Of a stretch of DNA of 64,000 nt, positions 21,650-44,522 are shown piece by piece. The DNA is from a virus. The DNA lies in IMG/VR virus record IMGVR_UViG_3300033571_022960, positions 62,001 through 126,000 of that record. The stretch is one strand, 5' to 3'. Numbering within the stretch: the first letter of the stretch is position 1; each line of letters starts with the position of its first letter. The notes below the pieces were generated by a model, which saw only the letters and a list, made by a program, of their open reading frames with translations, searched no databases and had not been told where the DNA came from. Both the position numbers and the translations under genes were made by a program.

Positions 21650-21681
21650 ATTGATTTTATGAAAAAAAAATTGTAGTTTTG
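21650..21681 (+). promoter_or_regulatory. Bacteroidota-type promoter, leaderless geometry
   Basis: Exact TAGTTTTG (-7, 21674-21681) 20 bp after ATTG (21650-21653). The ATG at 21686 begins after only 4 nt, so transcription would start at or next to the start codon. Confidence 0.6.
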
Positions 21682-21685
21682 TTAA

Positions 21686-21931
21686 ATGAAAACTTTTTTT
21701 GAAATATCTGAATTAAAAGAATCAAAAAATAAAGATTGGGTTATAGATATTCTAAACCGTTTTGGATTGAGTACAACCAATTATAGTTTATCTTATAAAA
21801 ACAACCAAGTAGTTATTTACTCTGGTAATCATAAAATTATTTCAAAAGAAATAAACGGTAAAACCCAATACGAAATGTATTCACAAATACCACCACTTCA
21901 TAAACATCCAAAAAAAACAATTATTATATGA
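21686..21931 (+). CDS. Hypothetical protein
   Basis: 81 aa starting MKTFFEISELKESKNKDW, loosely like the MKxFFTVEE starts at 27653 and 36434. Overlaps the AAA+ gene by 4 bp. Function unknown. Confidence 0.6.
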   Translation: MKTFFEISELKESKNKDWVIDILNRFGLSTTNYSLSYKNNQVVIYSGNHKIISKEINGKTQYEMYSQIPPLHKHPKKTIII

Positions 21932-23025
21932 AAGAAATACAAAACTCAATAACATTCTATACCTCATCTTTTGAGGATTTGGTTTTTCTTTATGAAAGAG
22001 AAAGACAAATTAATTTAAAATATAAAAAAAGTTTCAATAATGTTAATCTAACTAAGTTTGATGAAAAGTGGGGTAAATATACATTTAAAGAATCAGATTA
22101 TTCATATTTAAAAAATAAAGAATTAAAAGTTTCTCTTTTTAATAAATTTTATATTATTAACGAAACTTTGGAACTATCCAAAGAAAATAAAGTTGATAAA
22201 ACTATTTATCTTTTTACAAAAGACAGTTATGAAAACTCTGGAAAAATAAGTAGATTTATTTTGTTTTATGAACAAGAAACTGATTTAGTTAAGGAAATAA
22301 TAAAGGATATTATTAATTGTATGGAGGATTTGGAAAAAACTGAAAAATCAACATTAAATATTATTATTGATGATGGTGGAAATTTAAGATTAAAACCATT
22401 TCAAATTTCTTCAAAGGAAATTAATTTTGATAAACATTATAATAAATCATGCAAAGAATTTGTTGATGAATTATTGGATAAAGTTAAATTGGAAAAAGGT
22501 TTATTCTTAATGCATGGAAAACCTGGGACTGGTAAAACATCCCTAATAAGATGGATTATTAGTGTTTTAGATAAAAAAATGATTTATATTCCACCTGAAA
22601 TGACAAGTGTAATATCAAATCCAAATTTCATTAAATTTTTAATGAACCATCCAAAATCAATTCTTGTTATTGAGGATGCTGAAACCGTATTAATGAAAAG
22701 AACAAGTGGTGGAAGTTCTGCAATTCAAAATATCTTAAATCTTTGTGATGGTTTATTGTCTGATATGTTGCAAATACAAGTTATTGCAACTTTTAATACC
22801 GATATTAAGGATATTGACCCTGCATTATTAAGACCTGGTAGATTAAATGGTATATACGAATTTAAGGAATTGGATGATGATATTGCAAAAAATTTATGTC
22901 ATGAATTGGGTGTTGATTTCGATTCTTTAAGGGAAAAAACTTTGGCAGAAATCTTTAATTCAAATGATAAATTTTCTTTTAACAAAAAGGTTGTTAGAAA
23001 ATCAATTGGTTTCTCAAGTAAATAA
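21928..23025 (+). CDS. AAA+ ATPase
   Basis: 365 aa. Walker A HGKPGTGKTS (196-205), Walker B SILVIEDAE (about 245-253), sensor 1 QVIATFNTD, and an arginine-finger segment ALLRPGRLNG. The pattern is that of BCS1/FtsH-like AAA+ proteins. The N-terminal ~170 residues are unlike known domains and probably recognise the substrate. It could unfold or remodel host or phage proteins. Co-expressed with the 81-aa gene before it. Confidence 0.85.
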   Translation: MKEIQNSITFYTSSFEDLVFLYERERQINLKYKKSFNNVNLTKFDEKWGKYTFKESDYSYLKNKELKVSLFNKFYIINETLELSKENKVDKTIYLFTKDSYENSGKISRFILFYEQETDLVKEIIKDIINCMEDLEKTEKSTLNIIIDDGGNLRLKPFQISSKEINFDKHYNKSCKEFVDELLDKVKLEKGLFLMHGKPGTGKTSLIRWIISVLDKKMIYIPPEMTSVISNPNFIKFLMNHPKSILVIEDAETVLMKRTSGGSSAIQNILNLCDGLLSDMLQIQVIATFNTDIKDIDPALLRPGRLNGIYEFKELDDDIAKNLCHELGVDFDSLREKTLAEIFNSNDKFSFNKKVVRKSIGFSSK

Positions 23026-23032
23026 TATAAAA

Positions 23033-23414
23033 TGTATAAAGGAATTGTAGAAAATATTCGTAATTTTAAGTGGGGTAATATTTTTATAATAAATGTTTAT
23101 ATCAAGTTATTGATATAAAAAAAACAAATTTAAATATAAATGATTTTGTTGAGGTAGTGTTTTAAAAACTCCTGATAAACCTATTACCAACACCAATAAA
23201 AATACATCTTGAAATCAAGGATATTATTGAAAAAAATGATTGGATAAGTCTTAATAATTATATTTCTTCATTTATAAATCCTGATACACACATAGGAATA
23301 TTAAGAACAATTTTGGTTGCAATTAAAACTTTTAGGAATAAACTAGAAATAAAAAGTAGTATTGATAAAATATCTGAACTTTTACAATCTAAAATAACCA
23401 AACCACTATTATGA
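23033..23414 (+). pseudogene. Disrupted small gene
   Basis: An ATG at 23033 opens MYKGIVENIRNFKWGNIF, but the frame closes at 28 codons. Another frame continues as QVIDIKKTNLNINDFVEVV and stops at 23163-23165; the same frame then stays open from 23166 to 23414 (LEIKDIIEKNDWISLNNY) without any ATG. The final TGA overlaps the next ATG, as between intact neighbours. One frameshift and one nonsense change would explain it. Confidence 0.5.
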
Positions 23415-23653
23415 AAGAAGGAAAATTAAATACCAACATAAAAGATAGGGTAGTAACACCAAAGGAAGAAGTTTTACCACCACCTTCTGCAATTAATCAG
23501 AAAATAATCTTAGAATTATCAAATGATGATGCAAAAAAAATTCTTCATTGTCTAATGAGAACAAATGCAAGAAATAATAATAGTGGTTTAACAAATATTC
23601 TTGATGTTTGTGAAAGGGTTGAAAAGGAATTATATGAAAAAATTAGTTGGTAA
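23411..23653 (+). CDS. Hypothetical protein
   Basis: 80 aa. N-terminal part Lys/Val/Pro-rich (VTPKEEVLPPPSA), C-terminal part helical (DDAKKILHCLMRTNARNNN). Overlaps the broken gene by 4 bp. Unknown function. Confidence 0.6.
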   Translation: MKEGKLNTNIKDRVVTPKEEVLPPPSAINQKIILELSNDDAKKILHCLMRTNARNNNSGLTNILDVCERVEKELYEKISW

Positions 23654-23654
23654 T

Positions 23655-23921
23655 TTAATCATAAAATTCATCAGTAACTCCACCAGTTTGTCCTAAATAT
23701 TTTGGAAATCTTGGTTTTACTCTACCTACAAGTAATACATTTGCATTACCAGAACCAACCGTTTCAACTTTTAAATCAAATGTGTTGGGTCCTGATAAAG
23801 AAAGTGATTGTCCGTTAAATGTAACTGAATAAGGTCCTGCACCATTAACAACAACTCTATAAAAAAGATGTGTATTGGTGTTTGCAGATGTGGATGGAAT
23901 TATTATATCGTTTACGTTCAT
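23655..23921 (-). CDS. Small virion decoration-like protein
   Basis: 88 aa, rich in Thr, Val, Gly and Ser, with predicted beta strands (VVVNGAGPYSVTFNGQSL) that suggest an Ig-like or beta-sandwich virion protein. A late box lies 9 bp upstream. Codons are less AT-rich, as for gp19 and gp23. The exact role is unknown. Confidence 0.6.
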   Translation of the reverse strand: MNVNDIIIPSTSANTNTHLFYRVVVNGAGPYSVTFNGQSLSLSGPNTFDLKVETVGSGNANVLLVGRVKPRFPKYLGQTGGVTDEFYD

Positions 23922-23930
23922 TTTTATTTT

Positions 23931-23938
23931 ATAAATAT
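23931..23938 (-). promoter_or_regulatory. Candidate late promoter box
   Basis: ATATTTAT on the minus strand, 9 bp before the ATG at 23921. It abuts the divergent early-type promoter for 23974. Confidence 0.45.
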
Positions 23939-23969
23939 TTGATTTTTTGAAAAATTTTTATTAAATTTG
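23938..23969 (+). promoter_or_regulatory. Bacteroidota-type promoter, leaderless geometry
   Basis: TTTG (23938-23941), 20-bp spacer, exact TAAATTTG (23962-23969), then 4 nt to the ATG at 23974. Confidence 0.7.
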
Positions 23970-23973
23970 AGTA

Positions 23974-24183
23974 ATGAATACTTTTGGTAAACTTATTGAT
24001 GATATAAGAAAAGAAATAAAATATATTAATATTAGTTTTGAGGAAGTTCCTTTTGGTGAAATTATGACGATAAAAATACCAAATAAACCAAATCGAATGA
24101 TTGTAATAAATAGTAAATTAATAAATAATAAAGATTATACTGATATATTAGAAACATCAATTAAAACCTTAAAATTATTTTAA
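23974..24183 (+). CDS. Hypothetical protein
   Basis: 69 aa starting MNTFGKLIDDIRKEIKY, with PFGEIMTIKIPNKPNRMI. First gene of an operon reaching about 27.6 kb. Function unknown. Confidence 0.6.
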   Translation: MNTFGKLIDDIRKEIKYINISFEEVPFGEIMTIKIPNKPNRMIVINSKLINNKDYTDILETSIKTLKLF

Positions 24184-24184
24184 A

Positions 24185-24430
24185 ATGAAAAATAAGTATC
24201 AAAACGAAAAACAAAAAGTATTTAATCCAAATTTCAATGATAATCACCCCGAAAAAAAATCAGATGAAATATTTTTAATAAATTTAAAAGAAGGTAAAGA
24301 AAATAATTTCAATAACATTGACTTTATAACAGATATTAGAGCAGGTAATACTGCATATACTAATACTGGTGATATAGTTGAAGGATTTAAACCCTTATTT
24401 GGTAAATTAATATGTAGATGGACTCAATAA
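24185..24430 (+). CDS. Hypothetical protein
   Basis: 81 aa, polar, Asn/Lys-rich, with TDIRAGNTAYTNTGDIVEGF. Starts 1 bp after the previous stop and overlaps the metalloprotease-like gene by 13 bp. Confidence 0.55.
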   Translation: MKNKYQNEKQKVFNPNFNDNHPEKKSDEIFLINLKEGKENNFNNIDFITDIRAGNTAYTNTGDIVEGFKPLFGKLICRWTQ

Positions 24431-25005
24431 TTAAAAAGTGTAAAGGTAATATTTTTGAAAAAAGTGGTATTAATATTTTATATCCTATTATAATAAAAGA
24501 TTGGGATGAAGATGACCCTCTTGGTGGGTTTTGTGGGTTTGATAAAACAATTCATATAAATAAACATATTATTAATAATAATGGATTATTAAATAGAGTT
24601 GTATATCACGAATTTTTACATTTATTCTTACAAGTTGATACAAAATTATTTTATGATGTTTTGAGGGATAGATTTATATCAACCTATTTCTTTTACTTAA
24701 ACAAATATTGCAATAAATACCAAGTGGTAATAATAAATCCAGATTGTGATGTTTGGGTTAAATTTAAACAAACCAATAGTGAGGGACTTAGAAATCAAAG
24801 TAAATTGAGAAAAAACAACTCTTTATCAAATAATTACAATCAATTTACTATGTTAACTGAATTTATTGTTCATAATTCAGATTATTATTTTAATATAAAT
24901 TTTAATGATGTAGTATTTGAGGATAAAACTATTTTAGAAATGAACAAATTTGTTTTTAATTTAGTTTTGGATAATATAGATAAACATAGTAAATTAAAAA
25001 ATTAA
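24418..25005 (+). CDS. Putative HExxH zinc metalloprotease
   Basis: 195 aa. VVYHEFLHLFLQVD contains HEFLH (about residues 63-67), the zinc-binding HExxH of metallopeptidases, in a hydrophobic helix. A third ligand could be the Glu in MLTEFIVHNSDYY (about 143). No signal peptide, so it would act in the cytoplasm. No closer family is recognised, and activity is inferred from the motif alone. Confidence 0.55.
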   Translation: MDSIIKKCKGNIFEKSGINILYPIIIKDWDEDDPLGGFCGFDKTIHINKHIINNNGLLNRVVYHEFLHLFLQVDTKLFYDVLRDRFISTYFFYLNKYCNKYQVVIINPDCDVWVKFKQTNSEGLRNQSKLRKNNSLSNNYNQFTMLTEFIVHNSDYYFNINFNDVVFEDKTILEMNKFVFNLVLDNIDKHSKLKN

Positions 25006-25030
25006 TTATTAAACAAAAAAGGTATTAATT

Positions 25031-25585
25031 ATGATAAACAAAGAAAAATTAAAAGATATTGCATTGAATGCAATTAAAACTAAAGATTTTCATAAACTTA
25101 GATATATAGGTCAAACAATTGATTGTTTGTTGTTTGAACCTGAATATTCAGATGATGAACAATTATATATTTTATTTACAAAAATTAGTAAATTATTAAA
25201 TAATAATGATTTTGATTTATTACACAAATTAGAAGTTACAAATTATCCTGATTTGGATGAAATAGGTTTCCCTAAATGTGAAACTTTTGATAATTTAAAT
25301 GAAATATTCATTGTTGAGATGCGTAATAAAAAAGGTGAAACTGTCCCCTGTTGTTTCGTTTCTGATTCTATGGAAAAGGTTAAAAAATGGATGAAAGAAA
25401 ATACTGATTTTTCATACGGTTTTTGGTATTGGGCAATATTAAAAGGACAAGTTAATGGTTTAGGTTTTAATTTATATAAAGTTTATGATAAAAATGGTAA
25501 TCTATTAGATGAAGAACCAATCCAAAAAAGTTTCTTTGAAAAATTATTAATAAATATTTTTACAAATAAAACTGAAATACTTTGA
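25031..25585 (+). CDS. Hypothetical protein
   Basis: 184 aa. N-terminal half helical and acidic; C-terminal half beta-rich with FIVEMRNKKGETVPCCFVS and DFSYGFWYWAILKGQVNG. The stop overlaps the TTG start of the next gene. Unknown function. Confidence 0.6.
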   Translation: MINKEKLKDIALNAIKTKDFHKLRYIGQTIDCLLFEPEYSDDEQLYILFTKISKLLNNNDFDLLHKLEVTNYPDLDEIGFPKCETFDNLNEIFIVEMRNKKGETVPCCFVSDSMEKVKKWMKENTDFSYGFWYWAILKGQVNGLGFNLYKVYDKNGNLLDEEPIQKSFFEKLLINIFTNKTEIL

Positions 25586-25917
25586 ATTTAAAAAATACTT
25601 TAGAAAATCTTAAAAAATCAAAAAATAGTTTTTTTAATACCACTAGTGGTATGGTAGTTTGGTTTGATATATATAAGGAAAATTTAGAGGTGTATAGTGA
25701 AGGTGCATTTATTTTTAAGTTAAAAGACACTAAAGAAATCAATAAACATTTTATTGATTGGAATTTTAAATATGGTGATAATGATTTTAAAGAATCTAAA
25801 ATGATACCAACAATAATCTTCAATTTTTACATTGAAACCCCTTCATATAATATTCCGTTTCATAGAAATAGTTTTAAATATCTTAGAAAAAAAGATTTTT
25901 TAATTAGAATCAAATGA
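25582..25917 (+). CDS. NLKK family protein
   Basis: 111 aa from a TTG start: (M)NLKNTLENLKKSKNSFFN, then VWFDIYKENL. The TTG replaces the ATG of other members and overlaps the previous stop (TTGA). The variable body ends YLRKKDFLIRIK. Confidence 0.7.
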   Translation: MNLKNTLENLKKSKNSFFNTTSGMVVWFDIYKENLEVYSEGAFIFKLKDTKEINKHFIDWNFKYGDNDFKESKMIPTIIFNFYIETPSYNIPFHRNSFKYLRKKDFLIRIK

Positions 25918-26462
25918 TAATTAGTTTAGGTCACAGAAGGAGAGTTGGTAAAAATGAAGGTGCAAACTTTCTTTTACACTATATTAATGAACAATATAAA
26001 GGTACTGTTGAAATAATTTCTTTTGCAGATAAAGTTAAGGATATGTCATTTGATTTATATGGTCATTATGGATTAAAAGAAAAAGAATTCTATGAGAAAA
26101 ATCCACAATTTCGTGAACAACCTTTGCCAATAATAAACAAATCCCCAAGAGAAATTTGGATTGAATTCGGAAACAAAAATCGTGAAATTCATTCAAATGT
26201 GTGGGTTGATTGGGTAAAAAATAAAATCCCTAATTATGATAATGTTATTATTCCTGATTTAAGGTTTGAAAATGAGGGTAATATGATTCATGAAATGGGT
26301 GGTGTTTGTGTACGTATTGATAATCCAAGAATTCCACATTCAAATGATGTATCTGATTGTGCATTGGAAAATTGGAATGGGTGGGATTTTATTATTGACA
26401 ATAATGGAACATTGGAAGAATTTTATCAGAAATTAATTTATGTTTATAAAAAATTGAAGTGA
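25914..26462 (+). CDS. Deoxynucleoside monophosphate kinase (T4 gp1-like)
   Basis: 182 aa. Starts MIISLGHRRRVGKNEGANFL, an altered P-loop (GHRRRVGKNE) known from phage dNMP kinases. SFADKVKDM and SPREIWIEFGNKNREI with VWVDWV follow, then VIIPDLRFENEGN. It phosphorylates dNMPs, including modified ones in T4, and fits the nrdA/thyA pathway. Confidence 0.8.
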   Translation: MIISLGHRRRVGKNEGANFLLHYINEQYKGTVEIISFADKVKDMSFDLYGHYGLKEKEFYEKNPQFREQPLPIINKSPREIWIEFGNKNREIHSNVWVDWVKNKIPNYDNVIIPDLRFENEGNMIHEMGGVCVRIDNPRIPHSNDVSDCALENWNGWDFIIDNNGTLEEFYQKLIYVYKKLK

Positions 26463-27619
26463 TGAAAATTAATATAAATAATTTAAAAATAACACCAAAA
26501 AATTTAGTAAATAAATTTCAATTATCGGTTTTTAATCCTGATGATGAGATTTTAGAATGGGTAAAATATCACAATTTTCAGAATAATTCTGATAAAGGGT
26601 TTTTAAATATTGAAATAAATAAACCTTTAGAAGAATTATTTTTAGAATTACCACATTTTAGTTATATTGATGGTTTTTCACCAAATCTCAATAAAAAATT
26701 ACATATAGGACATTTTTCCAATTTTGTTATTGCAAAAAGTTTTGTTAATTTAGATATTGCAGAAAATCTAATTTCTATTTATGGTGATACATTAGAAGGA
26801 TTATCAAAAGAAGAATCTTTAGTAAATTTAAGAAAATATCAAGAACTTTTTAATTTTAAACCTCAAAAAGAATTTTTTGCATCAGAAATGAATTATTCTG
26901 ATTTATTAAAAGAAGGTGATGGTGATTATAAAGGTTGTAAAATATTTGATATTGATGGAGAAAAAATTGTTGGTATAAAAAGTAATGGTAATTCTTCTTA
27001 TTTTTATCAAGATGTTGCACTTGCAAGTATTCTGAATAAACCAACCATTTATTTAACTGGTCATGAACAAACTAATCATTTTAATTCATTAAAAAAATTA
27101 TTTCCATATATTCATCATATTGGTTTAGGTTTAGTTAAAGTATCAGGTAAAAAAATGAGTTCTCGTGAGGGTAATGTTTTATTAATGGAAGAAATTTTAG
27201 ATATTATTTATAATGAATTTAATGATTATGAATTAACTTATAATATATTTGCAGGTAACATATTAAAATCAAATCCAGAATCTGATAAAAACATTGATTT
27301 AAATTTATTGTCAAATCCAAAAAATAGTTTAGGTTTATATATTTCTTATACAACTGCACGTCTAATATCCGCTGGTTGTGATTTAAATTATAATTTAAAT
27401 GATGAAGAATTGGAATTTTTATTATATAAATCAAAATTTAATTTAAAACCAAATATACTTTTTAATGGTTTGGTTGATTATTGTAAAATGGTTAATTTAA
27501 AATATTCTGAATTAAAAATAAAGGATAATCCTGATAATAAAAAATTATTTGAAAATTATTTGGGTAATATAAATTATTGTTTACAAATATTAGGTTTATT
27601 TTTGATTAAAAAAGTATGA
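26462..27619 (+). CDS. Minimal arginyl-tRNA synthetase-like protein
   Basis: 385 aa, compared with about 550-600 for full ArgRS. The class I signatures are intact: SPNLNKKLHIGH (73-84) and KMSSREGNVLLMEE (231-244), with a TGHEQTNHF segment before the latter. The C-terminal ~80 residues look like the DALR anticodon-binding helices (LYISYTTARLISAGC). The N-terminal additional domain of ArgRS is lost. Start ATG 26462 overlaps the kinase stop. Confidence 0.75.
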   Translation: MKININNLKITPKNLVNKFQLSVFNPDDEILEWVKYHNFQNNSDKGFLNIEINKPLEELFLELPHFSYIDGFSPNLNKKLHIGHFSNFVIAKSFVNLDIAENLISIYGDTLEGLSKEESLVNLRKYQELFNFKPQKEFFASEMNYSDLLKEGDGDYKGCKIFDIDGEKIVGIKSNGNSSYFYQDVALASILNKPTIYLTGHEQTNHFNSLKKLFPYIHHIGLGLVKVSGKKMSSREGNVLLMEEILDIIYNEFNDYELTYNIFAGNILKSNPESDKNIDLNLLSNPKNSLGLYISYTTARLISAGCDLNYNLNDEELEFLLYKSKFNLKPNILFNGLVDYCKMVNLKYSELKIKDNPDNKKLFENYLGNINYCLQILGLFLIKKV

Positions 27620-27652
27620 TACCAAAAAATTTATCAGAAAAGAAAAAAATTT

Positions 27653-27862
27653 ATGAACACACTATTCACAGTAGAAGAACTAAAAAAAGAAAATAAAACA
27701 CTTTATGATTTGATTCATAAACCCAGATTTACTTTAAAGGAAAATAAAAAAATAAGAAACTATTCAGTCAAAGTTTTCATACTGAATAATAAAATAATAT
27801 TTAAATTTAAAGAAGATGATGAAATTAGTGGTACAGTTGATGAATTAAAAAAAAATATATAA
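27653..27862 (+). CDS. Hypothetical protein, 5' part of a frameshifted gene
   Basis: 69 aa starting MNTLFTVEELKKENKTLY. It ends right after a run of nine A (27847-27855), where the next frame takes over without its own start codon. A +1 shift in the A-run would give a protein of about 200 aa. The MNTLFTVEEL start resembles that at 36434. Confidence 0.5.
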   Translation: MNTLFTVEELKKENKTLYDLIHKPRFTLKENKKIRNYSVKVFILNNKIIFKFKEDDEISGTVDELKKNI

Positions 27863-28262
27863 TCTTGCAAAGGATTTTAATTTTCCCTTTGGTACATCAA
27901 AATACGGTTGTCATGTTGTATATGGTGAAAAAAAATCATCCATTAATTATATAAATATTACAAAACCAACTGAATTTAATGATGAAGAAAATACCACAGT
28001 AAACATTGATGATTTACCACTTTCTTTAAATGAAATGGAAAGAATTATTAATGAATGTGAAAAAAAGTATTTATTAAAAATAAAAATACCTAAAAATTAT
28101 ACTATAAATAATAAACCTGTTTTTATTTTTATAAATACAATTATTAATTGGCAACAAGTTTCAATAGAAAATAATAAGTATTATCATTTCTCAATACCTG
28201 ATGGTTTGCAAGATGGTTTATTGAGAAAGGAATGTAATTTGGATGAAATTTTGGTTTTTTAA
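27849..28262 (+). CDS. Hypothetical protein, 3' part of a frameshifted gene
   Basis: Open in this frame from 27849, reading IYNLAKDFNFPFGTSKYGC onward, with no ATG until 28029/28035. Codon use is protein-like throughout, so the region upstream of the first ATG is probably translated after slippage on the A9 run. It is also possible that a base is missing in the sequence. From ATG 28035 alone it would be 75 aa. Confidence 0.45.
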   Translation, partial: KKIYNLAKDFNFPFGTSKYGCHVVYGEKKSSINYINITKPTEFNDEENTTVNIDDLPLSLNEMERIINECEKKYLLKIKIPKNYTINNKPVFIFINTIINWQQVSIENNKYYHFSIPDGLQDGLLRKECNLDEILVF

Positions 28263-28294
28263 TTTGACTTTCTAAAAAATTTTATTTAAATTGT
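28263..28294 (+). promoter_or_regulatory. Bacteroidota-type promoter, leaderless geometry
   Basis: TTTG (28263-28266), 20 bp, TAAATTGT (28287-28294), then 4 nt to the ATG at 28299. Confidence 0.6.
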
Positions 28295-28298
28295 AATT

Positions 28299-28502
28299 AT
28301 GAAAACATTAGATTTTGAAGAACTTTTAACCAAAGTTCCTGACTTAAAAGAAAAGATTGGGGAAAATGGTTTTAATGATGTTAAAAATTCACAACCACAT
28401 TATAAATGTTTGGGTAAATGTGAAAGAGAATTTATTTCTGAAACCAAAGAAGAAACAAATATAATGTTTTGTTTTTCTTGTCAAAGAATAATGGAAGTAT
28501 GA
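28299..28502 (+). CDS. Small zinc-ribbon-like protein
   Basis: 67 aa. C-x3-C (CLGKC) and C-x2-C (CFSC) about 20 residues apart could bind one zinc. N-terminus MKTLDFEELLTKVPDLKEK is helical. Overlaps the next NLKK gene by 4 bp. Confidence 0.6.
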   Translation: MKTLDFEELLTKVPDLKEKIGENGFNDVKNSQPHYKCLGKCEREFISETKEETNIMFCFSCQRIMEV

Positions 28503-28837
28503 CATTAAATAAAACATTAATAAATTTAAAATATTCAAAAAACAGTTTTTTCAATTTAGAAAAAATTAAAGACGTATATATTAATATAGATTTGTTTAAA
28601 GAAAATGTTGCATTTAAATTATATACTCTCTATGGGTATGGTCGGTCTTTTGAGAATTATAAAGAAAATAGGTTTATAAATAAAAATAAATTCATTTATT
28701 ATAAATATTACCATCAAAAACCTGTTAGGGGTATTATTTATTATTACCAATCTAAAACGAACTATTTTCATATTATTACTAATTTAGAAGAATACAATGA
28801 ATTATATACTAATAAAAGTTTATTAATTTTAAGATAA
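28499..28837 (+). CDS. NLKK family protein
   Basis: 112 aa. MTLNKTLINLKYSKNSFFN, then VYINIDLFKENV. Start 28499 is set by the family block and the ATGA overlap. Tyr-rich variable body. Confidence 0.7.
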   Translation: MTLNKTLINLKYSKNSFFNLEKIKDVYINIDLFKENVAFKLYTLYGYGRSFENYKENRFINKNKFIYYKYYHQKPVRGIIYYYQSKTNYFHIITNLEEYNELYTNKSLLILR

Positions 28838-28849
28838 AATAATAAAAAA

Positions 28850-29565: not shown

Positions 29566-29664
29566 AGATTTTCACAACAAAATTCAAAAATTCACATAAA
29601 ACTAAAGAAGCATTTAAAGAAGGCAAAAGATAAAAAAAATAAATTAACAAAAACTTAGATAAAA

Positions 29665-33177: not shown

Positions 33178-33209
33178 TTTACTTTTTTAAAAAATTTTCA
33201 TTAAATTTA
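33178..33209 (+). promoter_or_regulatory. Bacteroidota-type promoter, leaderless geometry
   Basis: TTTA (33178-33181), 20 bp, TAAATTTA (33202-33209), then 4 nt to the ATG at 33214. Confidence 0.6.
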
Positions 33210-35732: not shown

Positions 35733-35867
35733 ATGAGTATGGTATGTTATTGTGGGCATACCTACAAATGTAGTTGTGGTAATCCTGATAAAAAATGTTT
35801 CAAAGAAAGTGTTAAACGTGGAACTATAATTTTGTGGGATAAAAATAATGGGTGGAAAAATTCCTAA
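35733..35867 (+). CDS. Small cysteine-rich protein
   Basis: 44 aa. MSMVCYCGHTYKCSCGNP followed by KKC: five Cys and one His within 18 residues, enough for a zinc site. The rest is TIILWDKNNGWKNS. The 3' end overlaps the convergent neck gene by 4 bp. Confidence 0.5.
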   Translation: MSMVCYCGHTYKCSCGNPDKKCFKESVKRGTIILWDKNNGWKNS

Positions 35868-36379
35868 CCATTAAATTCATTAACATCAGTAGGTACACAA
35901 ATAATCTTTCTATATAATGGTTTATAACCCATAATAGATTTTGCGTTTGTTTGATAAGTTGTATCATTATCAATTACTGTCCAAAATTTAAAACGTTTAT
36001 CATCAATTTGATAACCAACATAATCACCTATTTTAATATCAATTTCTTTTTCATTAAGAAAATCAATTAAAACAGTAAAAACTAAATTACCAATATCCTT
36101 ATAATTCAAGGTATTATTAGTATTATAAGATTTAAACTGTGATTCTTCTATTACTAAAGAAACTGGTAATTCAATTGGTGGTTGAGTTCTTATATCTTCT
36201 TTTGCACCTTCTGAATATATATCATCTATTGTTGTTTTTGTTCTATCAACCCTATAAAGTAAAATTTTTGTATTTATGTCATTTTCCAAATATTCTTTTG
36301 CAAATTCTCTTTCCAATGAGAATTCATCTTCGGTAAAAAATAAATCTACCCTTTTTATTGGTTTATTAATATCTGACAT
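35864..36379 (-). CDS. Neck-like virion protein
   Basis: 171 aa. The segment LYRVDRTKTTIDDIYSEG with TQPPIELPVSL resembles head-tail connector (gp13/gp14-type) proteins of T4-like phages, where a VDDIYGEA...PPVEL stretch is typical. The C-terminal half (KIGDYVGYQIDDKRFKFWT) is beta-rich. The exact T4 equivalent is uncertain. Confidence 0.6.
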   Translation of the reverse strand: MSDINKPIKRVDLFFTEDEFSLEREFAKEYLENDINTKILLYRVDRTKTTIDDIYSEGAKEDIRTQPPIELPVSLVIEESQFKSYNTNNTLNYKDIGNLVFTVLIDFLNEKEIDIKIGDYVGYQIDDKRFKFWTVIDNDTTYQTNAKSIMGYKPLYRKIICVPTDVNEFNG

Positions 36380-36384
36380 ATAAA

Positions 36385-36392
36385 ATAAATAT
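36385..36392 (-). promoter_or_regulatory. Candidate late box for the neck-like gene
   Basis: Minus-strand ATATTTAT, only 5 bp before the ATG at 36379, so closer than usual and less certain. Confidence 0.35.
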
Positions 36393-36397: not shown

Positions 36398-36429
36398 CTT
36401 GATTTAAAAATAAAATTTAATTAAGTTTG
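36398..36429 (+). promoter_or_regulatory. Bacteroidota-type promoter, leaderless geometry
   Basis: CTTG (36398-36401), 20 bp, exact TAAGTTTG (36422-36429), then 4 nt to the ATG at 36434. Confidence 0.65.
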
Positions 36430-36433
36430 TTTT

Positions 36434-36655: not shown

Positions 36656-36657
36656 AC

Positions 36658-37239: not shown

Positions 37240-37261
37240 TAACTTTGGTTTGATTCTATTG

Positions 37262-37286
37262 GGGGATTCTATTTATCCCCTTTTTT
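37262..37286 (+). terminator. Rho-independent terminator
   Basis: Stem GGGGA/TCCCC (37262-37266, 37276-37280) followed by TTTTTT. Confidence 0.8.
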
Positions 37287-37301
37287 ATTTTAATTTTTAA
37301 T

Positions 37302-38255
37302 ATGAAATTCGATTTTAAAGATATAACTTTAACCCCAAAAATGGGTATTGTTGATTCACGTTCAGAATGTGATACATCAATTAAATTTGGTAATCATAAG
37401 TTTAAATTACCAATTATTCCTGCAAATATGGAATCTGTGGTAAATAAAGAAATTTGCGAATTATTTGCAAGAAATGGTTATTTTTATATTTTTCATCGTT
37501 TTAATACAAATGATGAAAAAATATCTTTCGTAAAAGACTTTAAAGAAAAGGGATTAATTACATCAATTTCAATTGGTGTTAATGAGGATTCTTACGAATT
37601 ATTGGAACAATTATCTAAATTAAATTTACTTCCTGATTATATTACAATTGATATTGCACATGGACATTCAATTAAGATGGAGAAAATGGTGAAATTTGTT
37701 AAACAGATTGCACCTAAGACATTTTTAATTGGTGGTAATGTATCTACCCCTGATGGTGTGATTTCTCTTGATTTATGGGGTTGTGATGCAATTAAATGTG
37801 GTATTGCAGGTGGTACTGCATGTACAACTGACCCAACTACTGGTTTTGGTAATAGAGGTTGGACTGCGAATATGATTGAGGATTGTACTTATACAAATAA
37901 ACCAATCATTGCAGATGGTGGTATTAAAAGACCTTCTGATATAACAAAATCTTTGGTATTGGGTGCAACAATGGTAATGGTTGGTTCAATGTTAACAGGA
38001 TTTGAAGAATCCCCTGGTAATTTGATTGATTTAAATGGAAAACTTTATAAAGAATATTGGGGTAGTGCATCACAATTTAATACTGGAAAGAAAAATAGGG
38101 TTGAGGGTAAAAAAGTATTAATTGATTATAAAAATAAATCAATACTTGATGAATTGGTTTATTTGGAAGAATGTTTGCAAAGTTCAATATCTTATGCTGG
38201 TGGAAAAGATTTATCTTCATTAAAAAGTGTTAAATACGAAATTTTTAAAAATTAA
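37302..38255 (+). CDS. guaC: GMP reductase (GuaC2-type)
   Basis: 317 aa without CBS domains, as in GMP reductase rather than IMP dehydrogenase. It has IPANMESVV, IGGNVSTPDG, the catalytic Cys174 loop CGIAGGTACTTD, KPIIADGGIKRPSDI, GATMVMVGSM, and the C-terminal EYWGSASQFN, VEGKK and QSSISYAGG that distinguish GuaC. It converts GMP to IMP with NADPH, which would draw guanine nucleotides towards adenine, fitting an AT-rich phage genome (inference). Confidence 0.85.
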   Translation: MKFDFKDITLTPKMGIVDSRSECDTSIKFGNHKFKLPIIPANMESVVNKEICELFARNGYFYIFHRFNTNDEKISFVKDFKEKGLITSISIGVNEDSYELLEQLSKLNLLPDYITIDIAHGHSIKMEKMVKFVKQIAPKTFLIGGNVSTPDGVISLDLWGCDAIKCGIAGGTACTTDPTTGFGNRGWTANMIEDCTYTNKPIIADGGIKRPSDITKSLVLGATMVMVGSMLTGFEESPGNLIDLNGKLYKEYWGSASQFNTGKKNRVEGKKVLIDYKNKSILDELVYLEECLQSSISYAGGKDLSSLKSVKYEIFKN

Positions 38256-38257
38256 TT

Positions 38258-38977
38258 ATGACAAAAACAGAGTTCTATAATTCACTTGTAAATGTTTATT
38301 TAAAAACAGGACAAGGTGTACCTTATTTATTATTCAAAAATAAAATGGGGGAAAAATTTGATTTCATCATTAATTCTTTAAAAGAAGAAGGTTTAATTAA
38401 ATTAATCACGCAAAGATATAATCATCTACCTGATGATATATGGGTTTGCCTAACAAAAGGTTATTGTCCAGAAGAAGGTAATACAGAAGATTTACTTTTG
38501 TTCAGATACTATTTAGGTATTCTTGATGAAGATGATAAAACCACAAAAAGTGGGTTTAGTTTTTCTGCAGGTTCAAAAAAAATAAGACAATCACCTGAAT
38601 TAATTGAAAAATATTTTAATTGGTTAAAAACTAATCAAGAAAAACTTGCAGAAATAAAAACGATAAAAAAAGTTGTTTTAGATAATAAAATAGGTGAAAA
38701 TTTAAAAAATTTTATAAAAAATAAAAGTTGGTTTAAAGAAAATAAAAATAATTTAGAAATTTTAAGAATAAATAATCAAAAAATTTCTAAATTAGAAAAA
38801 CAAAAAAATATTTTGCAAGAATTAATTCCTTTAGAAAGAAAAAGTGAAAAATATAAAAATTCTGTAATAAAACATGAAAATGAACTGACTGATATAGATA
38901 ATGAATTATTATTAAGAAAAGAATTGAATATGTTTTTGGAACAAAACAAAGATAAAAATATACAAGAACTATTATGA
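38258..38977 (+). CDS. Hypothetical coiled-coil protein
   Basis: 239 aa. Residues 1-90 look like a winged helix (FDFIINSLKEEGLIKLITQ). A long coiled coil follows (about 160-239, KISKLEKQKNILQELIPLE). It starts 2 bp after guaC. Unknown function. Confidence 0.6.
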   Translation: MTKTEFYNSLVNVYLKTGQGVPYLLFKNKMGEKFDFIINSLKEEGLIKLITQRYNHLPDDIWVCLTKGYCPEEGNTEDLLLFRYYLGILDEDDKTTKSGFSFSAGSKKIRQSPELIEKYFNWLKTNQEKLAEIKTIKKVVLDNKIGENLKNFIKNKSWFKENKNNLEILRINNQKISKLEKQKNILQELIPLERKSEKYKNSVIKHENELTDIDNELLLRKELNMFLEQNKDKNIQELL

Positions 38978-39384
38978 TTATAGGAACTTTAGTTAAATTA
39001 ATAATACCAATTGATTCAGTAGATAAACATGAAACCATTGGTATTATGATTAATGGTGAGGTTAAACCACTTGCAAGTGTTTTATGGGAAAAACAATATG
39101 AACTTCAACTTTTGGAAAGAATTGAAAGAATGAAAAAAAATAAAAAACCTAACATAAAAATTAGGGATAACGACAATGAAATTATTATTAAAAATAATGA
39201 ATTTAATTATAACTATTATATGAATGGTTGGGAAAGTAATGATGAATATTATAATGATTCAGGTGTAATTATAAATGATACATTTCAAAAACCTGAACCT
39301 AAAAAGGGAAAACAAAAAGAAGATTTTTGGGATTTAATGCAACCTTATTTTGGTAATAATGTAGAAATAGAATTAATTTGGTAA
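38974..39384 (+). CDS. Hypothetical protein
   Basis: 136 aa. Starts MIIGTLVKLIIPIDSVDKH, a beta-rich region with VLWEKQYEL, then Asn-rich linker and a C-terminal WDLMQPYFGNNVEIELIW. ATGA overlap with the coiled-coil gene. Confidence 0.55.
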   Translation: MIIGTLVKLIIPIDSVDKHETIGIMINGEVKPLASVLWEKQYELQLLERIERMKKNKKPNIKIRDNDNEIIIKNNEFNYNYYMNGWESNDEYYNDSGVIINDTFQKPEPKKGKQKEDFWDLMQPYFGNNVEIELIW

Positions 39385-39428
39385 TAACGATAAAAAAAAA
39401 CATTATGAAATTTGAATCATAAGAAAAC

Positions 39429-39617
39429 TTGAATATATTTGATGATATTAAATTAGATATGTCAAAAAAATTTGGTATGAAAGGAAAAATTTACTCTGGC
39501 AATGAGGTTGCAGAACATATAGAAAATGAAACTGAATTGGGTATTGGAATGATTAATAGTATAATTAATTTATCTATTAATTTAATAAGTAGGGATAAAT
39601 TGAATATAAACGAATAA
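39429..39617 (+). CDS. Hypothetical small protein
   Basis: 62 aa from a TTG, or 52 aa from the ATG at 39459 (MSKKFGMKGKIYSGNEVAE). A 5-codon ATG frame just before it (39403) could couple translation. Start uncertain. Confidence 0.4.
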   Translation: MNIFDDIKLDMSKKFGMKGKIYSGNEVAEHIENETELGIGMINSIINLSINLISRDKLNINE

Positions 39618-39628
39618 TATAATTAATT

Positions 39629-39916
39629 ATGTTCATAAGTATTAGTTTATTTTTGATAATATTATTTTATTTATCGGGTTCTTTATTATGTATTCCGTTA
39701 GTTATTGCATATTCCAATAATTTTTACACTTTTGAAAATAAAGGATTTTTAGGTTTTATTTTTTTATCTTGGATTCTTTTTTGGATTGTTATTTTTATAA
39801 TTGTATCTGACGATTTTAATCATCCAATAAAAACAAAAACCAAATTTCAAAAATATTTTCAGTTTAAATTTGTAAAAAGAGATGGAAGGGGATTTAGACT
39901 TTCTGATGAATATTAA
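39629..39916 (+). CDS. Small membrane protein
   Basis: 95 aa with hydrophobic segments at about 1-32 (SISLFLIILFYLSGSLLC) and 41-60 (FLGFIFLSWILFWIVIFII), then a basic tail. Converges with the next gene by 4 bp. Function unknown. Confidence 0.6.
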   Translation: MFISISLFLIILFYLSGSLLCIPLVIAYSNNFYTFENKGFLGFIFLSWILFWIVIFIIVSDDFNHPIKTKTKFQKYFQFKFVKRDGRGFRLSDEY

Positions 39917-40527
39917 ATTTTTTTAATTTCATAATAAAATGAATCTGTATTTTCAGAGACCCATTTATCTGAAATATTTTCAACAGAAATTAACTTATCG
40001 TCAACTTTTATATCTTTTAATTCCATTGGAAATTTGTTTGTTATGAAATTTGAATCTTTCCAAAAAATTCTATTATTTGGTTGACATAATAAATAACCAT
40101 CATCTGCAACTATTATATGTCCACATTTGTAATCTGTTGGTTCATCTGAATAAGGATTGTTAAACCAATCAACAGTCATAAGGTAAGTTCCCCAAACCTT
40201 TGTCTTATCCTTTAAAACCACTTCACAACGTTTTTCTTTTAAATAATTATATTTTATAACTGCAACATTTTCTGAAAAACAATTCCATAATTGTTTAAAA
40301 TCTGCAGAAATATCTTTTTTTGGTATTGATAAAAATATTTCAGAAATTGGAACTCTTGAACGCAACATTCCATAATCAGTCATTATGTGGAATGTTAAAA
40401 TTTTATCAGAACAGGATTGTATCCCAAATGCAATCGAATTATCAAATCTATTATTATCTTCACTTTTTTTAGTAAAATGTGAACGTCTGACTAAACATTT
40501 GAAACTATCTATATTTTGATTTAACAT
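39913..40527 (-). CDS. Conserved hypothetical next to the prohead protease
   Basis: 204 aa. Beta-rich, with DYGMLRSRVPISEIFLSIP and KVWGTYLMTVDWFNNPY and GYLLCQPNNRIFWKDSNF. Its start overlaps the protease stop by 1 bp, so it is co-expressed with the protease. A head or assembly role is plausible. Confidence 0.6.
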   Translation of the reverse strand: MLNQNIDSFKCLVRRSHFTKKSEDNNRFDNSIAFGIQSCSDKILTFHIMTDYGMLRSRVPISEIFLSIPKKDISADFKQLWNCFSENVAVIKYNYLKEKRCEVVLKDKTKVWGTYLMTVDWFNNPYSDEPTDYKCGHIIVADDGYLLCQPNNRIFWKDSNFITNKFPMELKDIKVDDKLISVENISDKWVSENTDSFYYEIKKI

Positions 40528-41228
40528 CAGAAATTCATAAATCTTTTTAAAGATTCCAATCTTTTATCCATTATTTTTTGTTCCTTATCCTCATTCTCAA
40601 TCCAAAGTTTGTTTGCAACATCCATATCTGTAAACATATAAGAACCTGGTGTTGATGGTTGTGATACAATATCCCAACAAACCAATTCAAAATCACTTTG
40701 TACAACATTTTTTCCACCTTCTTTCTTTAAAGAACCCACACCTCTTGATGATACTCCAATTAAAACATTCCTTCTAAGAAGATTTGCAATATGGTCACCA
40801 GCACAAGAAACTATACCAGATTTAACAAAACCTGGAGAAGTTAGAATTTCTAATTTACCAATTAAGGTTTTTCCTTTCCAAAAAGTTTCAACAATTATGT
40901 GTGAAGTGTCATTGGTTTTAAGAGATATCTCTGAACTGTCCGGGTGGTTTGCTTCCCCTAGTGAACTTCTTGTTTTAATTAAACTCTGATACCTTTCATT
41001 TTCTCTATAAAGAATTTGTTTTGGGTACCATCTACCATTTTTATTTTCTGTATCATATTTCTGTAATACTGCATAAACATAAAGAGGGTCATTAATAATT
41101 CCACCTTCTTTATTTATTTCCAATTTATGAATTTCATTTAATAACCCTTCATTATCTTCTTTAATGATATAACCATCGTTCTCAATCAACATACCATAAC
41201 CTATTTCATCTTTTTGAAGTATTTTCAT
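40527..41228 (-). CDS. Prohead core protease (T4 gp21-like)
   Basis: 233 aa. The catalytic His95 lies in LGEANHPDS and the Ser in LIGVSSRGVGSL (160/161), the S78/U9 pattern. NGRWYPKQIL and FELVCWDIVSQPSTPGSYM are family landmarks. It cleaves capsid and core proteins after (I/L)-x-E. The predicted I-x-E site in the capsid protein (residue 60) fits. Confidence 0.9.
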   Translation of the reverse strand: MKILQKDEIGYGMLIENDGYIIKEDNEGLLNEIHKLEINKEGGIINDPLYVYAVLQKYDTENKNGRWYPKQILYRENERYQSLIKTRSSLGEANHPDSSEISLKTNDTSHIIVETFWKGKTLIGKLEILTSPGFVKSGIVSCAGDHIANLLRRNVLIGVSSRGVGSLKKEGGKNVVQSDFELVCWDIVSQPSTPGSYMFTDMDVANKLWIENEDKEQKIMDKRLESLKRFMNF

Positions 41229-41237
41229 ATTTTTAAA

Positions 41238-41256
41238 ATATTTATATTATAAATAT
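41238..41256. promoter_or_regulatory. Divergent candidate late promoters
   Basis: Plus-strand ATATTTAT (41238-41245, 13 bp before ATG 41259) and minus-strand ATATTTAT (41249-41256, 20 bp before ATG 41228). The stretch also holds TATAAATA on both strands, the T4 late -10 consensus. Confidence 0.5.
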
Positions 41257-41258
41257 CA

Positions 41259-41579
41259 ATGAAAAAATTATTATTAATAATAACTTTGTTTTTAACATTA
41301 AATATTGTTAAATCTCAAGATTCAAATTATTATTTTCATCAAAAAAGGGGAGATGAACCCTGGAATACATTTGATAAAAAAAATATTGGTGGTGGTTTGA
41401 TTGCAGTAGGTTGGACAATAACTACTATTACAGTTATTGCAGGAGAACCAAATAAAACAAATAAAATAATTGCATACGGAGTTGGACCATCATTTATTGT
41501 TTCAGGAAGTTTATATTGGTTGGTAAAAGGTTTAAAGTATAAACGTAAACAAGAATATTTATCAATAAAGAGATTTTAA
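41259..41579 (+). CDS. Exported or membrane-anchored protein
   Basis: 106 aa. A signal-peptide-like N-terminus (MKKLLLIITLFLTLNIVKSQ), then a second hydrophobic region (GGGLIAVGWTITTITVIAG) and a third (IIAYGVGPSFIVSGSLYWL). Ends basic. It directly precedes the fibre gene and has a late box. Perhaps a superinfection or lysis function; not recognised. Confidence 0.6.
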   Translation: MKKLLLIITLFLTLNIVKSQDSNYYFHQKRGDEPWNTFDKKNIGGGLIAVGWTITTITVIAGEPNKTNKIIAYGVGPSFIVSGSLYWLVKGLKYKRKQEYLSIKRF

Positions 41580-44300
41580 ATGAACTTTTATATAAGAAGA
41601 AATTCTATTCTACCTACACTTAAAATGAAATTAATCTTTGATGGTCGTAATGACTATAAAAGATTCCATGATTTATTGGAGAATTCTGTTGTAACATTTT
41701 CAATGAAAAATGTTAATAATGGGGTTTATAAAGTTGCAAATAAAGAAGGTAAAATAACCAAAATATCTAATAATGATGTTGATGAATATTATGTTGAATA
41801 TGAATGGGTTGTAGATGATACAAATGAATTGGGTCAATTTGAGGGTGAGTTTAAGATAAAATTTTTGGATGATTGTTCACATATTCTTGTTCCAATAAAA
41901 GAAAACCTTTATATTAATGTTTTAACTTCTTTTACAAAAGGTGATGTTGAACAAAATAATAATTTAATTGATGGGGATGGTTGTTTAATTTATTGTGAAT
42001 ATGACTCATTTACTGGTGGAACTGTATCAGGTAATACAACATTTTTATCAGGTGTTACTATAAATGGTAATTTAGATTTATGTAATGGTGAATTAAATGT
42101 GGAAATCATTAATGGTTGTTCACCTGTAACAATACAAAATAATTTGATAATCGAAGAAAATAGTTTAACTGGTAAAACTGTATATTTTGATGAAATTTTT
42201 TCAGGAGGAACAAATTTAAATGATATTTTTCTGAATAAAGATGAAAATATAATATCAGGTGAATTGGTTGGTTCAGATTTAATATTAGAAAGAGAAAATG
42301 AAAATCAAATCATAATATCAGGTTTTACAGATTTTTTCACCACAGGTGCAACTTTATCAGGTACTACTGCAATTTTTAATAGAAATGATGGAAATAATTA
42401 TACATTAGATTTATCTTCTTTATCAGGTTCAACTGTAACTGATTTAGATTTTAATTGCACAGGTAATACTCTATCCCTTGAACAAAGTAATAGGAAAAAT
42501 TTTTCAGTAGATTTATCTTGTTTAAAATCAGAAATTGATAGTTTTTCAATTGATTATAATTTGCGTGAAATAAGTATTGAACAAACAAATGCGAATCAGA
42601 ATGATTTTTCAATAGATTTAAATCCACTTTTATCAGGATTCTCAACAACAGATTTTTTCACCACAGGTGCAACATTTAACAATTCAAACAAAATTGCGAC
42701 ATTTAATCGAAATGATGGAAATTCCTATACTTTAAATTTATCAGGATTAACTTTACCTGATACTTATGTTACAGGTTTCACTTACGATAATCAAAACACA
42801 TTTACTATTAATCAAAATGAAGGTCAATCTCCATTGTCGGTGACAATGACTGATTTGACCTTGAATTCTTTTTCTGCAAATACTTTATCTGGGAATACAA
42901 TTTTTTCTGGAAATACAAATTTATCAACTGTGATTAATAATATTGCAAGTCAATATTCTGGTAATACCTTCGTAACTGGTGGCACATTTAATCAATTAAC
43001 AAGAAATTTAACCTTAAATAGAAATGATAGTAATAATGTTATTATAACAGGCATTACAGATTTTTTCACCACCGCAAGTACTTTTAATAATACCACAAAA
43101 ATTGCAACATTTAATCGAAATGATGGAAATTCCTATACTTTAAATTTATCAGGATTAACTTTACCTGATGTGTTTGTTTCGGGTGGTACTTTTTCATCAA
43201 ATACTTTGACATTAAACAGAACTGATGGTAATAATGTTGTTATTACAGGTTTTACCTCTGGTGTAACTGGTACAACAGGTTCAGTTGCATTTTTCGGAAC
43301 TGGTAACACAATTACTCAAGATAATTCAAATTTCTTTTGGGATGATACCAATAATAGATTGAGTCTTGGTACAAATACTAATACAAATTCCAGATTAAGA
43401 ATATTGGGTGCAAATACAGGAGCAGGAGCAACATCCACTTTTGGTTTACAAGTACACGATAGTACTGGAACAAATAATGCGTTGGTTGTTAGAGATGATG
43501 GTAGAGTTGGTATAGGCACAAGTTCACCTATTGGACAATTACACCTTAATGGTGCATTTCCAAACAAAGTTGCAATGGTTCTAAACGCAACTAATTTTAG
43601 TTTTAATAACGGCAATTTTATAGGGTTTCAAAATAATGGAGTTGATAGAGGGTTAATATACATTGCAGATAGTGGTAGTGATGCTTTGCGAGGTATAAAA
43701 ATTAGCAACCCCACAGCAGTTTCAGAAATAATGGTTGCAACTGGTAACAGAGGTGTAACAATTACTAATTCAGGTTCATTTACAAATGGCAATGCCTTTC
43801 AATCTGCTGTAACTAATACATTAGGAACAACAACACCTATTACAATATATGGGGCAGATGTTAGCATTAGTCCTTTAGGCTCAACAATAAGCCATATACA
43901 AGAAACTAATGTAGTTGGTAGAAAAAATCAATTATTACATAGATTTTTTACATCAACTGGTGTAGTTGCAGAGTATGGCGGATATGGAAGTGAATTAATT
44001 ACTAATACAAATGGCTCACATAGTGGTGATTTGTTTTTTAATACTGCAAATGCAGGAACGTTTGATGAAAGAATGAGGTTGAAGTTTAATGGTAATTTAC
44101 TAATTGGAACCACCACAGATAACCCGAGAGCAATATTAAATTTAACATCAACATCAAAAGGTGTTTTAGTTCCAAGAATGATTACTTCCGAAAGAGATGC
44201 AGTAAGTTGGGTTGCAGGTGATGCAGGTATGGTAATTTATAATACTACTACAAACAAACATCAGGGTTGGAATGGAACAACTTGGAATGATTTTTATTAA
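41580..44300 (+). CDS. Tail fibre / receptor-binding protein
   Basis: 906 aa. The N-terminal ~125 residues (MKLIFDGRNDYKRFHDLLE and HILVPIKENLYINVLTS) look like a virion attachment domain. The shaft is built of Thr/Ser/Gly/Asn-rich repeats such as ITDFFTTGATFNN and NRNDGNSYTLNLSGL. The C-terminus has RVGIGTSSPIGQLHLNG and KGVLVPRMITSERDAV with GMVIYNTTTNKHQGWNGTT, typical of trimeric fibre tips in Bacteroidota phages. No self-cleaving chaperone motif is seen. Confidence 0.85.
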   Translation: MNFYIRRNSILPTLKMKLIFDGRNDYKRFHDLLENSVVTFSMKNVNNGVYKVANKEGKITKISNNDVDEYYVEYEWVVDDTNELGQFEGEFKIKFLDDCSHILVPIKENLYINVLTSFTKGDVEQNNNLIDGDGCLIYCEYDSFTGGTVSGNTTFLSGVTINGNLDLCNGELNVEIINGCSPVTIQNNLIIEENSLTGKTVYFDEIFSGGTNLNDIFLNKDENIISGELVGSDLILERENENQIIISGFTDFFTTGATLSGTTAIFNRNDGNNYTLDLSSLSGSTVTDLDFNCTGNTLSLEQSNRKNFSVDLSCLKSEIDSFSIDYNLREISIEQTNANQNDFSIDLNPLLSGFSTTDFFTTGATFNNSNKIATFNRNDGNSYTLNLSGLTLPDTYVTGFTYDNQNTFTINQNEGQSPLSVTMTDLTLNSFSANTLSGNTIFSGNTNLSTVINNIASQYSGNTFVTGGTFNQLTRNLTLNRNDSNNVIITGITDFFTTASTFNNTTKIATFNRNDGNSYTLNLSGLTLPDVFVSGGTFSSNTLTLNRTDGNNVVITGFTSGVTGTTGSVAFFGTGNTITQDNSNFFWDDTNNRLSLGTNTNTNSRLRILGANTGAGATSTFGLQVHDSTGTNNALVVRDDGRVGIGTSSPIGQLHLNGAFPNKVAMVLNATNFSFNNGNFIGFQNNGVDRGLIYIADSGSDALRGIKISNPTAVSEIMVATGNRGVTITNSGSFTNGNAFQSAVTNTLGTTTPITIYGADVSISPLGSTISHIQETNVVGRKNQLLHRFFTSTGVVAEYGGYGSELITNTNGSHSGDLFFNTANAGTFDERMRLKFNGNLLIGTTTDNPRAILNLTSTSKGVLVPRMITSERDAVSWVAGDAGMVIYNTTTNKHQGWNGTTWNDFY
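42690..42761 (+). repeat. 72-bp repeat within the tail fibre gene, copy 1
   Basis: Matches 43098-43169 with one mismatch. Encodes KIATFNRNDGNSYTLNLSG and following residues. Confidence 0.85.
43098..43169 (+). repeat. 72-bp repeat within the tail fibre gene, copy 2
   Basis: Second copy of the repeat at 42690. Near-identity at DNA level suggests a recent duplication or recombination in the shaft. Confidence 0.85.
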
Positions 44301-44303
44301 TAA

Positions 44304-44335
44304 TTTGATTTTGTCAAAAATTTTTATTATATTTT
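44304..44335 (+). promoter_or_regulatory. Bacteroidota-type promoter, leaderless geometry
   Basis: TTTG (44304-44307), 20 bp, TATATTTT (44328-44335), then 4 nt to the ATG at 44340. Confidence 0.65.
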
Positions 44336-44339
44336 ATCC

Positions 44340-44522
44340 ATGAAAAGATTTAAAGTTAGAGAAATTGAAGGTAGGGTAACTTCGTTTAAAAATAATTTAA
44401 ATAGAAAAGATTTATATTTACTTTTAATTAATATGAAAAAATTGGATTCATTAGAAATATTATTTAATGAAAATTATTCTACACCAGATTACATATTAAA
44501 TAATTTATATATTTCTAAATAA
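44340..44522 (+). CDS. Hypothetical small protein
   Basis: 60 aa starting MKRFKVREIEGRVTSFKNN, helical. Single-gene transcript with its own promoter; it converges on the glycosyltransferase gene with 18 bp overlap. Confidence 0.55.
   Translation: MKRFKVREIEGRVTSFKNNLNRKDLYLLLINMKKLDSLEILFNENYSTPDYILNNLYISK

Follow-up and report, generated by a model that had tools for sequence, protein, structure and literature searches.

Promoter boxes at a fixed short distance from start codons point to leaderless genes of two promoter types in a T4-like phage and its relatives

In a T4-like phage whose sequence we followed up here, promoters of the host sigma-A type, with TTTG about 20 bp upstream of a TAnnTTTG box, very probably put the start of transcription on the AUG and would yield leaderless mRNAs, and TATTTAT boxes would do likewise. 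In the mechanism we propose, host RNA polymerase of the sigma-A type would recognise TTTG and TAnnTTTG, the box lying 4-5 nt before the start codon, and would start on the A of the ATG or no more than about one base away from it, after which the Bacteroidota ribosome, independent of Shine-Dalgarno (SD) pairing, would read the leaderless message from its 5′-terminal AUG. Starts would be of two kinds, without a leader or with a leader of roughly at least 8 nt, intermediate lengths being rare, and the second box, TATTTAT, would share the same design and probably be read by a phage sigma factor.

The DNA analysed (64,000 nucleotides, the window) is the part from base 62001 to base 126000 of a virus record of 133,435 bases with 75% A+T, which encodes a major capsid protein of the T4 type (Gp23) as well as tail sheath, portal and baseplate wedge. 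Hundreds of relatives of its capsid gene are present in IMG/VR. With Flavobacterium phage immuto among the nearest cultured relatives and a ribonucleotide reductase that most resembles those of Bacteroidota bacteria, the phage probably has a Bacteroidota host. A simple script called 216 genes in the record (93% coding; the starts are those of the script), and the counts for this record cover the 200 genes with an ATG start and 90 nt upstream, leaving out non-ATG starts and genes less than 90 nt from the record end. The relatives comprise 12 related records (G001-G012) plus immuto, with 2137 genes. Distances (d) are the nucleotides between box end and ATG, and shuffles preserved dinucleotides (400 for the own record, 60 for the relatives' TAHHTTTG count). 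Loci L089-L168 had been selected by the geometry itself, so that no count includes them; L158, which belongs to this set, was used in building the peptidase profile A1. As the sequences are related, the counts given below are not independent trials.

A preliminary description of the window had named seven ATGs, each preceded at a distance of 4 nt by a TAnnTTTG-like box, and all seven were found as claimed (Table 1): the box is exact at four, with one mismatch at two and with two mismatches at one. It had also claimed a TTTG-like -33 box for six of them, and the six sites on the plus strand indeed have, at exactly 20 bp, a tetramer matching TTTG in three or four of its letters, 58741 having CAAA instead. 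That list was incomplete, since four more sites in the window fit (58487, 52439, 49634 and 16872), among which 49634(+) and 16872(+) have TTG at the right spacing. The further assumption that the polymerase starts a few bases past such a box agrees with published distances: many -7 elements of F. johnsoniae lie 4 or 5 nt from RNA-seq-predicted start sites (PMC6847099), and in F. psychrophilum the box covers -12 to -5 (PMC9723704). With a box 4 nt before the ATG, +1 is therefore expected on the A of the start codon. For the class this leaderless reading is strongly supported by the sequence comparisons that follow, and less so for the weak sites at 28299 and 58741.

Two local features deserve mention. 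The box TAAATTGT at window 28287-28294(+) fits TAnnTTGY rather than TAnnTTTG; in F. psychrophilum, TAnnTTGY has been described as motif SM5 (PMC9723704), and the box at 28299 possibly serves an alternative sigma factor. Moreover, the stretch at window 57202-61265(-) is poor in genes; several strong promoters of nearly the same sequence (TGCATTTGACAAA ... TATCTTTG at 60984 and 60721) lie in it, together with a single tRNA-Met; an Rfam search of this stretch found nothing beyond the tRNA, and small RNAs are possibly made there.

Table 1. Promoter-like sites and associated genes; positions refer to the window unless another record is given.
Feature	Elements	Position	Strand	Remarks
Putative promoter	ATTG + 20 bp + TAGTTTTG	21650..21681	+	exact box, 4 nt before ATG 21686 (ORF 21686-21931, 81 aa)
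Putative promoter	TTTG + 20 bp + TAAATTTG	23938..23969	+	exact box, 4 nt before ATG 23974 (ORF 23974-24183, 69 aa); closest to consensus
Weak promoter-like site	TTTG + 20 bp + TAAATTGT	28263..28294	+	4 nt before ATG 28299 (67 aa); two mismatches to TAnnTTTG
Putative promoter	TTTA + 20 bp + TAAATTTA	33178..33209	+	one mismatch, 4 nt before ATG 33214; geometry kept in orthologues
Peptidase-like protein, 369 aa		33214..34323	+	phrog_4191; orthologue of M20/M42-like family with box 3-5 nt from ATG
Putative promoter	CTTG + 20 bp + TAAGTTTG	36398..36429	+	exact box, 4 nt before ATG 36434 (73 aa)
Putative promoter	TTTG + 20 bp + TATATTTT	44304..44335	+	one mismatch, 4 nt before ATG 44340 (60 aa)
Exact box	TATCTTTG	58746..58753	-	4 nt before ATG 58741; CAAA at -33; frame of 34 codons only, doubtful gene start
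Site added here	TTTG + 20 bp + TATCTTTA	49598..49629	+	one mismatch, 4 nt before ATG 49634 (102 aa)
Site added here	CTTG + 20 bp + TAATTTTA	16836..16867	+	one mismatch, 4 nt before ATG 16872 (106 aa)
Site added here	TAAATTTG	58492..58499	-	exact, 4 nt before ATG 58487 (67 aa); lacks a -33 box at 20 bp
Site added here	TAACTTTG	52444..52451	-	exact, 4 nt before ATG 52439 (98 aa); lacks a -33 box at 20 bp
Phage-type box	TATTTAT	36385..36391	-	5 nt before divergent ATG 36379 (ORF 35864-36379, 171 aa)
Phage-type box	TATTTAT	window	+	upstream of 41259, 10618 and 47186
Sigma-like protein		G003 88882-89580
Sigma-like protein		G005 50056-50754
Sigma-like protein		G007 15605-16303
Sigma-like protein		G010 21129-21827
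Sigma-like protein		G008 94555-95301
Sigma-like protein		immuto 78150-78872

Protein scans with 33214 alone and with 21928 alone gave no orthologues, and one with 37302 alone gave four, at about 30% identity, so that conservation could be tested only with a peptidase profile and with a family adjacent to the capsid gene. Both families are sampled near the query, because the best 80 of 571 and the best 80 of 110 relatives were kept, respectively. The peptidase loci were found by a profile scan of the protein alone, and 78 of the best 80 were used, two lying too near a contig end. Within their 54 distinct upstream regions an exact box stands at 4-5 nt in 49 (46 at 4 nt, three at 5 nt); the remaining five comprise three with a one-mismatch box at 4 nt and two without a box. 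The peptidase genes in G006, G008, G009 and G011, records chosen by their capsid protein, have the box at 3, 4, 4 and 4 nt, and the distant peptidases of Cellulophaga phages phi38:1 and Calle_1 are without it. The earlier prediction of a start at the ATG gains support here, the putative promoters being of the Bacteroidota housekeeping type and their geometry being kept in orthologues.

The second family, a protein of about 104 aa whose gene adjoins the capsid gene in the relatives, has no BLAST match in the window's own record. Its sequence resembles, as we presume, SAP domains; this name was not retained, Pfam assigning no family. Its best 80 of 110 relatives provided 49 distinct upstream regions, and without any choice among possible starts the host-type box lies at 3-5 nt in 47 of them (one at 3 nt, 28 at 4 nt, 18 at 5 nt). 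The other two have it at 6 and at 15 nt, and in the latter an in-frame ATG four codons up stands 3 nt from the box. When, wherever possible, an in-frame ATG lying 3-6 nt from a box is taken as the start, it is found four codons further up in 9 of the 49 regions, the box having moved along with it, and 43 of the 49 show a hairpin with a T-run whose end lies 27-46 nt upstream of the ATG. A message of the capsid gene should therefore stop at this terminator-like hairpin, and the promoter fills the space that remains. This arrangement is the best evidence for a message that begins at the AUG.

These regions also bear on an alternative that we consider unlikely, in which the boxes are active but ribosomes chiefly translate longer messages that read through from upstream, the leaderless one being minor or silent. 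Most leaderless-type starts do lie behind a co-directed gene (19 of 24 host-type and 120 of 164 phage-type), and the gap to the upstream gene looks short in many peptidase relatives. On the other hand, the hairpins just described stand in the way of read-through, and divergent sites (5 of 24 host-type, 44 of 164 phage-type) receive none from their neighbour; in the window, the starts of one such pair, 36379(-) and 36434(+), are 54 bp apart. Moreover, read-through would not need a box locked to the start codon, yet both stay together even where the start has moved.

The leaderless geometry is also far more frequent than expected. When counted against shuffled sequence, TAnnTTTG at d=3-5 precedes 9 of the 200 ATG genes of the own record (shuffle mean 0.74) and the two-box form at d=4-5 precedes 7 (0.30), numbers reached in none of the 400 shuffles. 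Neither TAnnTTTG nor the two-box form occurs at d=6-12, and at d=13-25 the latter is found 8 times (1.97 in shuffles). In the relatives and immuto, the strict word TAHHTTTG occurs 18 times at d=4, against 1.33 in shuffles, among 139 boxes at d=0-40. The records contribute unequally: at d=4 there are five in G006, four each in G005 and G008, three in G009 and one each in G007 and G011, with none in G001, G002, G003, G004, G010, G012 and immuto; G010 has two at d=5 and G003 two at d=3. No host-type box at 3-5 nt was found in G001, G002, G004, G012 or immuto (0 of 3 boxes in immuto), nor in 50-kb stretches of crAss001 and Calle_1. As these counts at d=3-5 differ among records, the geometry is common in some relatives and absent in others.

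The distances of the host-type box in the relatives form two groups, the second of them at 12-40 nt, and the host-type starts are of two kinds, with the box at 3-5 nt or at least 13 nt away. In many of the cases at d=4-5, a TTG lies 19-20 bp upstream of the box. The bases that follow the box do not by themselves locate +1, since the share of A is 60% at nt 5 and still 59% at nt 8; A at -3 amounts to 54% in 24 host-type leaderless starts versus 57% in leadered ones. It is very improbable that such spacing arose by chance in AT-rich DNA or by a gene caller picking the first ATG. The record is rich in A+T, and single weak sites such as the box at 28299 or the short frame (34 codons) at 58741 would be expected by chance, but shuffles that keep dinucleotides stay about tenfold below the observed counts, distances of 6-12 are empty beside the peak at 3-5, and the spacing is conserved in orthologues found by protein. 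A chance origin is thus refuted for the class and applies at most to single weak sites.

A second box, of phage type, follows a similar pattern. Two words were enriched upstream of the relatives' genes, ATATTTAT (292 versus 13.9 expected) and TATTTATA (300 versus 14.9), and the former also precedes genes of the own record (29 versus 2.6 expected). Across the 2137 genes of the relatives, TATTTAT is found 156 times at d=4-6 (5.13 in shuffles), 27 times at 7-10 (6.60) and 205 times at 12-20 (14.5); the 200 genes of the own record have 8, 2 and 19 copies at these distances. It was by far the commonest at 4-6 among 21 words of the same letters, the next, with 51, being an overlapping word. In 230 leadered copies, nucleotides 5-7 after the box are A in 80-86%, as compared with about 30-65% for four rearranged words, and this preference for A may represent a start-site signature, exactly where the ATG sits at d=4-6. 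Phage-type leaderless starts have T at -1 in 84% of cases versus 49% in unclassed genes, and A at -3 is lower (41% versus 59%); the median gap to the upstream gene is 37 nt for them and 48 nt for leadered ones. No conserved partner was seen upstream of this box. Three genes of G000 outside the window (4236-4688(-), 16192-16404(+) and 17180-18073(+)) have near-identical first 20 residues (MKYIITEKQLRLIEDLELKS-like) and a phage-type box at 4-5 nt; the shared N-terminus is perhaps a targeting or cleaved leader peptide.

That either box is a ribosome-binding or Kozak-like RNA element and not a promoter seems scarcely credible: its position relative to the ATG is fixed and Bacteroidota use upstream A residues in place of an SD sequence (PMC6847099), but the host-type box is a known promoter element, often with the TTG noted above, its distances fall into two groups, and the phage-type box is nearly absent before bacterial genes (1 at d=4-6 among 1159).

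The preliminary description had also held that virion genes are without the geometry and that it may mark early genes. The former statement stands for the host-type box at four named genes of the own record (gp23, sheath, portal and baseplate wedge), where sheath and portal have the phage-type box at d=18 and 17. It does not extend to the relatives, in which a phage-type box with leaderless spacing precedes 16 of 40 distinct portal homologues, 11 of 27 for terminase and 5 of 8 for the baseplate wedge, as well as 6 of 34 for bS21. The early-gene reading is unsupported, because sequence cannot give timing and the geometry occurs next to virion genes, with a host-type box in the capsid-adjacent family, and at virion genes, with the phage-type box at the relatives' portal, terminase and baseplate genes.

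Promoters of Bacteroidota sigma-A (sigma-ABfr) have the same two boxes at similar spacing, with a start expected 4-5 nt downstream (PMC6847099, PMC9723704, PMC7366714). Their messages are however mostly leadered, whereas in the window's record, of the 20 TAnnTTTG boxes no more than 30 nt from a gene start, 9 stand at 3-4 nt. According to these sources, the leaders of F. psychrophilum have a median of 24 nt, with 5.5% of messages leaderless (PMC9723704), 3.7% of the 5′ UTRs of B. thetaiotaomicron are shorter than 10 nt (PMC7366714), and 87% of the leaders of F. johnsoniae exceed 10 nt (PMC6847099). In our bacterial set (80 ribonucleotide-reductase loci minus three with non-Bacteroidota titles, that is, 77 loci with 1170 genes), 15 of the 133 boxes within 40 nt sit at 4-5 nt and 8 at 6-11 nt. 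The leaderless-type spacing is common to phage and Bacteroidota bacteria and is not phage-specific. Two bacterial protein families (L322, L341 and L351; L295, L299 and L318) have their box 4-5 nt before the start codon across different genomes of the phylum, and conserved leaderless genes may therefore exist in hosts.

Late promoters of phage T4 consist of TATAAATA and lack a -35 element. The phage-type box is likewise without an upstream partner, and most relatives encode a candidate late sigma factor, a conserved protein that is about 232-251 aa long and weakly matches sigma-70 region 2. The two systems differ in that the enriched sense-strand word here, TATTTAT(A), is the reverse complement of the T4 octamer, and in that no such sigma-like protein was found in the own record, which may be incomplete. 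As a sense-strand late promoter TATAAATA was rejected, occurring only scattered.

Leaderless phage mRNAs, that of lambda cI among others, are familiar, and they also start at AUG; what is predicted here from sequence is a conserved design with two promoter types across many T4-like phages. Phage transcripts have been called 'often leaderless', yet leaders of 26-491 nt were given for AR9 (PMC5312081). Bacteroidetes phages that encode bS21 have been described (PMC9723584), in a main text that mentions neither 'leaderless' nor 'promoter', and our literature search listed no report of leaderless genes in Bacteroidota phages. A bS21-like protein is likewise encoded in 7 of the 13 records searched, and in G003, G005 and G010 its gene is no more than about 5 kb away from the capsid-adjacent one. 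As an explanation of the design bS21 fails for the own record, which has no match to it.

Altogether, we give about an even chance to a broader proposal, namely that T4-like phages of Bacteroidota hold a large set of leaderless genes under two promoter types, with TATTTAT serving portal and terminase genes, about 40% of the TATTTAT copies near genes being leaderless and leaders of a few nucleotides being avoided; a host that does without SD pairing would suit such genes, and bS21 may tune their translation. The choice of start codons without SD pairing is a current question for Bacteroidota ribosomes, and leaderless messages are generally regarded as rare in these bacteria. Start codons locked to two promoter systems would offer natural leaderless genes in which to study initiation at a 5′ AUG, and the phage set also bears on the role of phage bS21 and on the avoidance of leaders of 2-8 nt. 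Moreover, the geometry would provide a sequence rule for transcription starts and true start codons across a very large set of uncultured phages.
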